From Vulgatibacter incomptus (GTDB lineage Bacteria > Myxococcota > Myxococcia > Myxococcales > Vulgatibacteraceae): a stretch of 64,000 bases of DNA. The translations under genes and the position numbers were made by a program. Under the pieces are notes generated by a model. The model did not search any database. It saw nothing but the letters and a program-made list of their open reading frames with translations, and was not told the origin of the DNA. The stretch is from NCBI RefSeq assembly GCF_001263175.1, contig NZ_CP012332.1, positions 2,539,501 through 2,603,500 on the forward strand, in the 5' to 3' direction. Position 1 is the stretch's first letter. Every line of letters begins with the position of its first letter. This document shows, piece by piece, positions 4,498-45,872 of the stretch.

Positions 4498-7464
4498 TTA
4501 CAGGCCAGTACAGGGCGTATACTGGGAGAACGACTGCGCCGAAAGCGAGAGCAAACGCATCTGGTTACGCTCCTCGCGTTCCATCCATACCGGAACCAGG
4601 TCGCTCCGGCGAGGCTCGTCGTATAGGACGCCTTCATCCGTGAACTTGCCGCCGAACTTGGCGTCCGCCCCCGATGGCATATAGCGCCAGGCCTCGAGGC
4701 CACGACCGCGGGCCGACGCGAAGATGGTCAGCGCCCCGGTCGAATCGACAGCCAGGGCGGTCTTCTCGTAGAGACCGGGCTGACGCGGAACAGTCAGCAG
4801 GTTGTCGCGCCGCCCGTTTGCGAGGTCATACGAAACGAGACTGACGGTCTTGCCCGCATCCTCGACCTGCAAGAGATAGAGACGGTTTCGAACGGTATCA
4901 AGGGCGATGCCGAGATTCTCGTCGTCCGGCTCGTACTCGAAGGTGGCGAAGCCAGCAACACCGGTGGAGAGATCGTAACGACGAAGGCCGGGGTCGGAGT
5001 CCCTACCCACGAGGTAGAGGATTCCCTGGAGCCCGGAGAAGGCGCCCCGTTCCTCGTCGGAGATCTGCACCGCGCCGATGAAGCCCATGCCCGAGTCGTA
5101 CTCAGGATCGCCGTCGATGTCGATCTGTCCGTCCTTCAGCGTGAGTGGAAGGGGCAGACCTGCTCCAGTGCCCTCACGTGGGACGAGAACGCCAACGTAT
5201 GCATCGAACCTGGCCAATACAGCAGGCTCCTCAGCAGCAGGGACCCAGCGCCATTTTCCGGAGGACATGAGCTCGGTCAAACGAGGTGAAACGCCGTCGA
5301 AGGCATCGACTGCCGCCCCGTCACGACGAACCAGACCAACCCAGCCTGCATCGAAGACGAAGGGACGGATTCTGTCGAGGATTCGATCCTCCGGCGGGTT
5401 CCAGACTCGGGCCAGCGGATGCTCCCATCCGAGACAGTTCGGGAACGAACAGGGGCCAAACCGCCAATCGCGCTTGTAGATCTCGTAATTTGGCGTATCA
5501 AACATCCGGACTACCGTCCGAAGGTTCCACGAACCGGCGTCGCGAGTGCTCGCGAAAACGCCGTTCACGCGAGTCACAATGGAAGCGACGAGCCCATGTG
5601 TCCTCAAGGGGTTCGCCGGATCCCTATCGACCGGATTGTTGGACCTCATGATGTCGTCAAAGGAGTTCCAGACAAACGAGTAGGGATGAGAGACGTTGGT
5701 GTCGAACCGGAGCGACCGGCCTGTCGGAGGGAATGGAGCGGCGTTCGGCTCGACCGCCACAGTGAGAGGCTTCCAGCCATTGAGGACGCGATCGGCCCAA
5801 CGAGGCCGGCATTCGATCCGGTCCGCGCAGCTCGCTTCCGTTTGATACCGCCCGCCTGAAATGCAGGAGCAGTGCTGAAATACCGTCGGCTGTGAAATCG
5901 AAGTCACGAATCGAGTCCCGTCGAACCCGAGCCAAGAGTGGCCCTCGATTGTCTGATAATCGACGCCTTCGGCACCCAGGCCGAATGGGGGAGCAAACTC
6001 CCGATAAACCGGCGGCTCGCCCTGCGCGAAGTCGTAAACCGGCACGGGGTCGCACACGTCTCCGAGCCTCGACACGTTCACGTCATTCTCGATATGGAGA
6101 TTGGCGTTCCGGTTTTCGGGGTCCCAGTCGTACGGACAGTAATCGCAGGCGTCAGGAACGCCATCGCCATCCCAGTCTGCGAGTTGGCTGCAACGGCCCG
6201 GAAGGGGTCGGCCGTCTTTGTCGTAGTCGAAGAGGCAGATGCCTGCTCGAGCGCTCTCGCAGGTCGTGGAGCCGGAGAGGCAAGGGAGGAAGTGGAGCGC
6301 CATGCCCGGGCAGCCGTTACAGGCGTCACCGACGGTACCCCCATTCGAGATTGTCTGGGGCGCGTCTTTCATCGGGCATGAGTCGCAGACATCGCCCACG
6401 CCATCTCCGTCGCTGTCGATCTGCCGGGAGTTGGCACAACTCCGGCCGTCCCCCAAAGCCGCACATCGCGAGGGCGGACAGTTATCACAGGCGTCGCCCA
6501 CGCCGTCGTTGTCCTCGTCGAGCTGATCGGGGTTGAAGCATCGAGAGAGCGGCCAGCCGCGGGCGACGCAGAGCGACGGGGGGCAGTTATCAAACTGATC
6601 GGGGACACCGTCACCGTCGGCATCGGGGATGAACGGAGTCAGGTCCGTTCCAATTCCGTCGATTGTCCCGAGGTGAGCCCAGGCCTGGTGCGAGGATCCA
6701 TCCCACCAGCCGCGGTCGCCGGAGGTCACGCCAAGGAGCACGTACTCTCCCGTCTGAATGTCCATTCCGAAGAGTGCGCCGCCCGAATCGCCGGAATCCA
6801 TCATCGCCTGCCCCGTTCCGTATGGCGCCCATATCTCCGGGAAGTCGAGACATGTGGATCCAGCGACCTTAAACCGATTGCATTTCCGCCTCTCCGCGGT
6901 GACCCAGTTGACCGGTCCATAGCGGCGCTTTTGGTCCCAGACGACGTTGCCCTGGTAGTCGCGGCTTAGTCCGTAGCCTACTTGGATGAAACCGCCGCGG
7001 CGATTCCTGGACATGAACTCCTTGACGCTTCCGGCGTTGTAGGCGGGGATTTTCTTGACGAGAGACATTGGGACATCTCGATCGAGCGTCAGCAGGACGA
7101 TGTCGCGGCCACTCACTCTGTTTCTAGGCGTTCTACCGAACGTCTCCCGATCGATTTCTTTGAACTCTGGATAGTTTCGGTCCTGAGCGAAGCTGACCCG
7201 GATGCTTCCCACACTGTCGCCGACGACGCAGTGACCTGCTGTGACGACATGGCGTCGGGAAACGAGAGTGCCCGAGCACTCCCTGTTCGTATCCGGGCGG
7301 CGAACGAAAGCTACCGCTCCCGCAACGCCTTTCCAGGTTGAGAGCTCTTCGGCCTTGGAGATGGTGGGGTAGTCCGGTTGGAAGGTGCCGTAGATAGGCT
7401 GGGCGCTCTGGTCTACGACTTCATCGACAGGAGTGACCTCGCCCGCCTGACACGCTGCCAGCAT
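4498..7464 (-). CDS. Secreted S1-family serine protease lipoprotein with thrombospondin type 3 repeats
   Basis: Large exported protease. The S1 triad is visible: His in VTAGHCVVG, Asp in GRDIVLLTLDR, Ser in SGDSGGALF. The residue six before the catalytic Ser is Met, not Asp, so trypsin-type specificity is unlikely. Residues about 280-480 carry repeats such as DADGDGVPDQFDNCP and DSDGDGVGDVCDSCP, the calcium-binding thrombospondin type 3 pattern with Cys inserts; the C-terminal half is beta-rich and unassigned. The frame begins MLAAC, a lipobox without its hydrophobic region. A strong ribosome-binding site (GGAGGGAG) and ATG lie 46 bp upstream at 7510 but one frame off, separated by an 8-bp tandem repeat. 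The protein as given may therefore be poorly expressed or switched off. Confidence 0.8.
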   Translation of the reverse strand: MLAACQAGEVTPVDEVVDQSAQPIYGTFQPDYPTISKAEELSTWKGVAGAVAFVRRPDTNRECSGTLVSRRHVVTAGHCVVGDSVGSIRVSFAQDRNYPEFKEIDRETFGRTPRNRVSGRDIVLLTLDRDVPMSLVKKIPAYNAGSVKEFMSRNRRGGFIQVGYGLSRDYQGNVVWDQKRRYGPVNWVTAERRKCNRFKVAGSTCLDFPEIWAPYGTGQAMMDSGDSGGALFGMDIQTGEYVLLGVTSGDRGWWDGSSHQAWAHLGTIDGIGTDLTPFIPDADGDGVPDQFDNCPPSLCVARGWPLSRCFNPDQLDEDNDGVGDACDNCPPSRCAALGDGRSCANSRQIDSDGDGVGDVCDSCPMKDAPQTISNGGTVGDACNGCPGMALHFLPCLSGSTTCESARAGICLFDYDKDGRPLPGRCSQLADWDGDGVPDACDYCPYDWDPENRNANLHIENDVNVSRLGDVCDPVPVYDFAQGEPPVYREFAPPFGLGAEGVDYQTIEGHSWLGFDGTRFVTSISQPTVFQHCSCISGGRYQTEASCADRIECRPRWADRVLNGWKPLTVAVEPNAAPFPPTGRSLRFDTNVSHPYSFVWNSFDDIMRSNNPVDRDPANPLRTHGLVASIVTRVNGVFASTRDAGSWNLRTVVRMFDTPNYEIYKRDWRFGPCSFPNCLGWEHPLARVWNPPEDRILDRIRPFVFDAGWVGLVRRDGAAVDAFDGVSPRLTELMSSGKWRWVPAAEEPAVLARFDAYVGVLVPREGTGAGLPLPLTLKDGQIDIDGDPEYDSGMGFIGAVQISDEERGAFSGLQGILYLVGRDSDPGLRRYDLSTGVAGFATFEYEPDDENLGIALDTVRNRLYLLQVEDAGKTVSLVSYDLANGRRDNLLTVPRQPGLYEKTALAVDSTGALTIFASARGRGLEAWRYMPSGADAKFGGKFTDEGVLYDEPRRSDLVPVWMEREERNQMRLLSLSAQSFSQYTPCTGL

Positions 7465-44356: not shown

Positions 44357-44480
44357 GCGAGACCCCGGGTAGGAGGCGGCGAGCGGTGGTAGTCGAGCCC
44401 CTTGTGCATGGGGTCTCCGTCGGCAACACTTCCAGGTGTAGCGGTTTCCCAGCGATGCACCGACATCCGGAGACACTGGT

Positions 44481-45872
44481 TTGCCTGACTCGAACGGCCT
44501 TCGCTCCTTCGCGTTTTTCGCGCTCCTGGCCGGCTCCATCGCGGCCTCTGCCCATGCCGCCACGCGAACGAGCGGGGCAGACGCGAAACGACCTCCTGGG
44601 CAGGTCGACATTGCGGCCCTCTTTGCACCGAGTCCGGAGTCGCTTCGGGATCATGCGAGAGCGATGAACGAGTTCGGCCTCGAGCTCTTTCGTGCCGCGA
44701 GGACCGACGAGAACGGAGCGATCTCGCCTCCGTCGATCGCCGCGGCGTTCTCGCTGGCAGTTCCCGGCGCGAATGGGACGACCCTCGCCGAGCTTCGCCG
44801 GGCCCTCCGCGTCGGGAGCGACGACGTGGCGTACATGCGCCTGGGCCACGAGCTGCTCCAGTCGATCTCCGACCGAGCGGAGCTAGAGGCTGCGAGCCGC
44901 GCCTTCGTCGACGATGACCTTTCACTGAAGGCCGAGTACGAGCGCACGATCGCATCCGCGGCCGGGATGTCGTTCGAGCGTCTGCCGATCTCCAGCGATC
45001 CGGAAGGCGCGCGGGTGCGGATCAACCGGTGGGTCGACCAGACGACGAAGGGGAAGATTCCGTCGCTCCTCCCGCCAGGGCTCGTGACCACAAGGACCCA
45101 GCTCGCCCTCGTCTCCGCGCTGAGCCTCTCCGGAAGTTGGATGCATCCGTTCAAGCTCGACGACACACGTCCCGGCCCCTTCCATCTGCTGACGGGCCAG
45201 ACGATCGAGGTGCCGATGATGCACGCCCAACGCCGTGCGTCGTACGCCCGGGTGGATGGCGTGAAGCTCCTCGAGCTTCCCTTCCGCGGCGATCTATCGA
45301 TGCTTTTCGTGCTGCCGGACGAAGGAGAGGACGATTCGACCGGATCAACTGGTTTGGGACTGGGTCAGCTGGGCCCGAGATCGTCAGCACCCACCCCTTC
45401 CACCCCGGCGAATCGCGTCGCACCCTCGCGCCCGGCGGCCAGCGCAAAGCCGGCAAAGACCCTGCGGCAGGTCGAGGATGCGCTGACGGTCGAGACCCTC
45501 GAAAGGTGGACCTCGCGGCTCTCCCGGAGCAACGTTTCGATCGCGATTCCACGATTCACCGTCGACGCGCCCCTGGACCTGAAGCCGCCGCTGATGTCGA
45601 TGGGCATTCGGCGGGCCTTCAAAGAGGGAGAAGCGGATTTCAGCAAGCTCTCGGCGAAACGGCTGTACATCGAGCACGCCGTCCACCGGTCCTTCGTCCA
45701 CGTCGACGAACGAGGCGTCGAAGCGGGCGCGGCGACGGCCCTCCTCTTTGGCAGCCGGGGCGCGACCCCCATGCCGTCGTTTCATGCCGATCAGCCGTTT
45801 CTCTTCCTCATCCGCGACCAGAAGACCCAGGCGATCCTCTTCATCGGCCGGGTGACCCACCCGCGCGACTGA
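44481..45872 (+). CDS. Exported serpin
   Basis: A 463-residue serine protease inhibitor. A TTG start at 44481 with CGGAGAC upstream gives a signal peptide (FAFFALLAGSIAASAHA). Serpin core motifs: ALVSALSLSGSWMHPF, LLELPFRGDLSMLFVLP, HRSFVHVDERGVEAGAATA and DQPFLFLIRD. The reactive loop hinge ERGVEAGAAT follows the P17-P8 pattern of inhibitory serpins; counting on, P1 would be the Arg in LLFGSRGAT, suggesting trypsin-like targets. A Pro/Ala/Ser-rich insert of about 50 residues (about 295-345) interrupts the core where most serpins have a short turn. It probably protects the cell against its own or prey proteases. Confidence 0.9.
   Translation: MPDSNGLRSFAFFALLAGSIAASAHAATRTSGADAKRPPGQVDIAALFAPSPESLRDHARAMNEFGLELFRAARTDENGAISPPSIAAAFSLAVPGANGTTLAELRRALRVGSDDVAYMRLGHELLQSISDRAELEAASRAFVDDDLSLKAEYERTIASAAGMSFERLPISSDPEGARVRINRWVDQTTKGKIPSLLPPGLVTTRTQLALVSALSLSGSWMHPFKLDDTRPGPFHLLTGQTIEVPMMHAQRRASYARVDGVKLLELPFRGDLSMLFVLPDEGEDDSTGSTGLGLGQLGPRSSAPTPSTPANRVAPSRPAASAKPAKTLRQVEDALTVETLERWTSRLSRSNVSIAIPRFTVDAPLDLKPPLMSMGIRRAFKEGEADFSKLSAKRLYIEHAVHRSFVHVDERGVEAGAATALLFGSRGATPMPSFHADQPFLFLIRDQKTQAILFIGRVTHPRD

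Follow-up and report, generated by a model that had tools for sequence, protein, structure and literature searches.

A predicted exported inhibitory serpin with P1 Arg and a private Pro/Ala/Ser-rich insert

The window, by which we mean the whole stretch of 64,000 nucleotides analyzed here, encodes a serpin that we consider likely to be an exported inhibitor, acting through the standard suicide-substrate mechanism with Arg426 as its P1 residue and directed against basic-residue-specific and mostly foreign proteases. Serpins, of which those of human blood are the most familiar, are single-use protease traps. Following this mechanism, a basic-residue-specific protease would attack the Arg426-Gly427 bond, the cleaved loop would enter sheet A as a new strand, and the acyl-enzyme would be dragged across the serpin molecule and then trapped. 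The basis in hand consists of the fold, the hinge, the register of the reactive loop, a signal-like N-terminus and a genome in which no Asp189 trypsin or subtilase was found; actual inhibition, Arg/Lys-specific targets and their mostly foreign origin are what we infer. The window protein is an ordinary serpin save for a floppy loop of 45 residues that is absent from its relatives.

The serpin gene, delimited by open reading frame analysis and the Pfam profile PF00079, occupies positions 44,481–45,872 of the forward strand and encodes 463 amino acids between a TTG start and a TGA stop, with a possible Shine-Dalgarno sequence on the same strand (GGAG, 44,469–44,472) from which the TTG lies 8 nt downstream. 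The PF00079 match covered the full-length domain with 319.6 bits (cut-off 27) and an E-value of 4.1e-95, which rules out a chance match, and was composed of two stretches with the insert between them. Alignment to Pfam and PDB sequences together with an AlphaFold model placed the first part of the serpin body, from helix A to strand s3B, at 44,649–45,323, and the second, from helix G to the C-terminus, at 45,462–45,869, both on the forward strand. The first-pass annotation had located the serpin at 45,290–45,780; it is indeed encoded there, but this interval holds its C-terminal part only. No NCBIfam named family was matched at E 0.001, and a profile search of the host genome, a single contig of 4,350,553 bases, found one serpin, that of the window. 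Residues 1–26 (44,481–44,558, forward strand), ending in ...SIAASAHA/A, read as a predicted Sec signal peptide. This N-terminus has no lipobox Cys; a simple pattern detected a lipobox-like motif in 61 of 111 relatives tested. The gene is flanked by a TetR regulator and an RPE65-family gene on one side and by recA and a Mg-chelatase-family gene, presumably ComM-like, on the other, and nothing in this neighborhood ties the serpin to a protease gene.

The AlphaFold model of the serpin showed a complete fold (mean pLDDT 86.7, pTM 0.84), its main low-confidence parts being the insert and the reactive loop, the latter with a pLDDT of 28. Antithrombin was the best structural match in a fold search, with a Z-score of 48.3 and an rmsd of 2.0 over 370 residues, and the Foldseek list also included chloropin and conserpin.

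The Pro/Ala/Ser-rich insert spans residues 283–327 (45,327–45,461, forward strand), between elements that we take to be s3B and helix G. A disordered insert of about 50 residues had been anticipated; its presence is clear, although its size is 45 residues, and the low model confidence (pLDDT of about 47–75 in 10-residue blocks, dropping to 47–58 within the insert) agrees with disorder. Its 45 codons include 7 Pro, 7 Ala, 7 Ser, 5 Thr and 5 Gly. Where the window serpin has 47 residues (positions 282–328), the 120 relatives compared have 1–5 (three residues in 85 of them, four in 31, five in two, and two and one in a single relative each), so that the insert adds 42–46 residues and is private to the window serpin within this set. 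The insert had a third-position GC of 0.667, against 0.831 and 0.853 for the serpin body on either side. Its codon-adaptation index, with four window genes as reference, was 0.439 (0.296 for the first 18 codons) compared to 0.599 and 0.664. As the N-terminal stretch of the serpin gave similar values for both measures, low codon adaptation is not peculiar to the insert; such values are what one would expect of a linker under weak constraint. An origin by frameshift was rejected as far as tested, since the insert comprises 45 complete codons and leaves the reading frame of its flanks unchanged, and so was an origin from a mobile element, with neither a tandem repeat nor a second copy in the genome. 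The insert is most simply explained as a tolerated flexible linker grown in the surface loop from s3B to helix G.

The hinge, P17–P9, corresponds to residues 410–418 (E-R-G-V-E-A-G-A-A; 45,708–45,734, forward strand), as placed by loop count and by comparison with relatives. P17 Glu, P15 Gly, P12–P9 A-G-A-A and P8 Thr are in place, so at the sequence level the hinge is of the inhibitory type that the first-pass annotation had recognized. P17, P15, P13, P12, P10, P9 and P8 carry the majority residue among the 120 relatives. P14 is Val instead of Thr or Ser, a Val shared by 4 of the 120, of which 105 have Thr, and P11 is Gly, found in at most one of the 120, of which 108 have Ala. Counting 17 residues from P17 Glu410 gives Arg426 as P1 (codon CGG, 45,756–45,758, forward strand) and Gly427 as P1'. 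The same P1 had been proposed from counting, with alignment to structurally known serpins named as the check, and in these alignments it stays at Arg426: the loop of neuroserpin aligned without gaps, Arg on Arg, and conserpin and chloropin likewise presented an Arg opposite Arg426. By its loop register, therefore, the window protein is predicted to belong to the P1-Arg serpins.

When the same 17-residue count was applied to 120 relatives within the phylum, P1 was Thr in 32, Gly in 18, Val in 17, Arg in 9 and Lys in 2; P1 Arg is thus a minority state in the phylum (9/120). An enrichment of P1 Arg among the nearest relatives was rejected (2/15 versus 7/105, Fisher p 0.31). In a tree of the window serpin and 58 relatives, the branch of the window serpin was long (1.58) and its placement unsure. 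This quick tree hinted at an Arg-P1 clade containing the window serpin, with a support of 90 at an open fork, and such a clade is not claimed because the window serpin is a long branch. No ortholog that could show conservation of the Arg was found, the best identity being around 40%; there was no serpin match in one genome of the same family (G001), and a scan of genome contigs for close orthologs returned one distant partial relative (L003). For the superfamily as a whole, the phylogeny of Spence 2021 is reported to contain bacterial groups S, T and U as well as hub-like prokaryotic serpins (PMC8233489). Tandem serpin genes adjoining on one contig were observed among the relatives (L136 and L142, from genomes G087 and G088), and an in-frame stop was flagged inside some of the search matches to these copies.

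The proteases of the host genome were surveyed with six family searches, including PF00089, PF13365, PF00082 and PF03415, which proteases of other families would escape. PF00089 matched at 7 places and PF13365 at 8, overlapping. One of these proteins is the window's own secreted protease (4,498–7,464, reverse strand), a Trypsin-domain protein with TSP3 repeats, for which Met at the specificity-pocket position had been proposed; this Met does align with Asp189 of trypsin and plasmin. Its paralog L066 is likewise secreted, with a trypsin fold and thrombospondin type 3-like repeats; the window protease combines Met189 with GDSGG, whereas in the paralog Thr replaces the catalytic Ser (GDTGG). In the six proteins with a G[DN][ST]GG motif, residue 189 was Ala, Ser, Ala, Thr, Met and Pro. 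L147 reads PIGYGASGG, so Pro at 189; L149 has a GGNSGS motif and is by appearance, we assume, an S46 peptidase. In L069 (around 3.42 Mb), a trypsin-fold relative, the context of the catalytic His seems lost and GDSGG is absent, as in a likely inactive homologue. No Asp189 was found in the S1/Trypsin_2 proteins matched by PF00089 and PF13365, and neither an S8 subtilase (PF00082) nor a C11 clostripain (PF03415) was matched. The C25 search gave one weak match, covering the last 82 profile positions, in L082 (around 0.707 Mb), an exported protein of possible gingipain-family affinity with possible His and Cys dyad residues. Three paralogous C14 proteins were found, L070–L072 (around 1.84, 2.12 and 3.18 Mb), with signal-like N-termini, a conserved His-Cys dyad and an Asp two residues before the Cys; the matches of L070 to solved metacaspases were weak (E 0.095 and 0.16). 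In two of the three, a possible beta-barrel region is followed by a terminal aromatic residue, and upstream of L072 lies a reading frame for a possible anti-sigma-type protein.

Loop length may vary among these serpins, since two relatives (L074 and L075) have their Arg one position earlier under the same count, and a variation of one residue in the window serpin would make Ser425 or Gly427 the effective P1. Such a shift appears very improbable, given the gapless alignment to neuroserpin, the agreement of chloropin and conserpin on Arg, and the fact that Arg426 is the only Arg or Lys between P8 and P10'. A different objection is that the protein could be a non-inhibitory or substrate-like serpin, drifting since the loss of its original target. 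The long branch, the private insert and the weak codon adaptation are consistent with drift, as is, in a comparison addressing the conserved shutter and breach residues, the alteration of 14 of the 79 columns conserved in at least 80% of the 58 relatives (the other 65 being kept). The altered positions include Ser and Leu substitutions in strand s3A, which we equate with Asn186 to Ser and Phe190 to Leu in A1AT. However, the hinge remains of the inhibitory type, and the residues that we equate with Ser53, Ser56 and His334 are retained. Moreover, such divergence is not unique to the window serpin, because in a set of relatives ranging from 1 to 22 changed columns three of the 58 also have 14 and four have 18–22. 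We therefore consider drift unlikely, and the window serpin is, as judged from its sequence, probably a diverged yet functioning inhibitor.

As for the targets of such an inhibitor, a classical trypsin-like self protease is unlikely as judged from the genome sequence, because neither a chymotrypsin-fold protease with Asp189 nor a subtilase was found in it. The suggestion that the serpin might act on other self proteases was narrowed: the family searches found no Asp189 trypsin, S8 or C11 enzyme, and the three C14 proteins and the weak C25-like one are left. The candidates predicted to have the expected basic specificity are chiefly the three exported C14 proteins, and the serpin could be a self-directed regulator of these caspase-fold proteases (orthocaspases) using the same trap chemistry. 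A C14-type self target is possible because orthocaspases are reported to cut after positively charged residues (PMC6426788) and plant and algal serpins to inhibit metacaspases, AtSerpin1 acting on AtMC9 and AtMC1 and CrSERPIN on CrMCA-I (PMC10609998). The three signal-bearing proteins with their His-Cys dyad and preceding Asp fit such a role, and, apart from the weak C25-like L082, the searches revealed no other self protease class that is clearly Arg-specific. Against it, the C14 genes are not linked to the serpin gene at 2.58 Mb, and the activity, specificity and location of their products are predictions. We judge this self-directed role improbable, and decidedly improbable its elaboration into an endogenous, cross-class orthocaspase off-switch based on P1 Arg, in which the insert would serve as an envelope exosite or tether. 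Among the listed titles and abstract openings on bacterial serpins, myxobacteria, caspase-like proteins and disordered insertions, there was no bacterial serpin-orthocaspase pair and nothing on the window serpin. Control of periplasmic HtrA/Deg-type proteases would be another self-directed function: the genome encodes four HtrA-like proteins with NPGNSGG, and SerpinE2, a P1-Arg serpin, is reported to bind and inhibit HtrA1 via its loop (PMC11026092). Yet these four proteins have Ala, Ser or Pro at position 189, and HtrA enzymes usually favor small aliphatic P1 residues. We hold this function to be very unlikely indeed.

Foreign proteases, whether from competitors in the soil, from microbial grazers or from decaying matter, are the likeliest targets, and defense against foreign Arg-specific proteases is the simplest reading of an exported inhibitory serpin with P1 Arg. 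An action on prey, as also suggested by the first-pass annotation, gained no support; the host, with its small genome, probably belongs to a group whose predation is described as different from that of other myxobacteria (PMC12093494). With one serpin and few own proteases in the genome, the question of self or foreign targets is unusually tractable here. If the C14 proteins were the targets, the serpin-metacaspase pairing of plants and algae would extend to bacteria; if not, the window would hold another secreted P1-Arg serpin.

Among the closest solved bacterial serpins is chloropin (PDB 8GXV), whose P1 is reported as Arg383 by mass spectrometry and which is reported to form complexes with trypsin, thrombin, KLK1, KLK7, FXIa and elastase (PMC10090351). 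The window serpin resembles it in fold, inhibitory hinge and P1 Arg, and also in the primed side (R-x-A-x-P-M-P ... F-x-A-D-x-P-F); in contrast, the aligned part of chloropin lacks a long insert, its P1' is Ser instead of Gly, and identity in the Foldseek alignment is 29%. Of the solved structures, the one matching the window serpin best in sequence was conserpin (PDB 5CDX; E 3.6e-57), a designed consensus serpin. It has Arg in the aligned P1 column, but its primed side is three residues shorter and it lacks the insert. Neuroserpin (PDB 3FGQ), whose gapless loop puts on Arg426 an Arg that we take to be its P1, is an animal protein with Met at P1'. Within Myxococcota, the nearest tree rows are two serpins of the same order (L034 and L036), which share P1 Arg with the window serpin and differ from it in overall sequence (36–40% identity), in having 4 residues instead of 47 at the insert, and in P14 Thr and P11 Ala.
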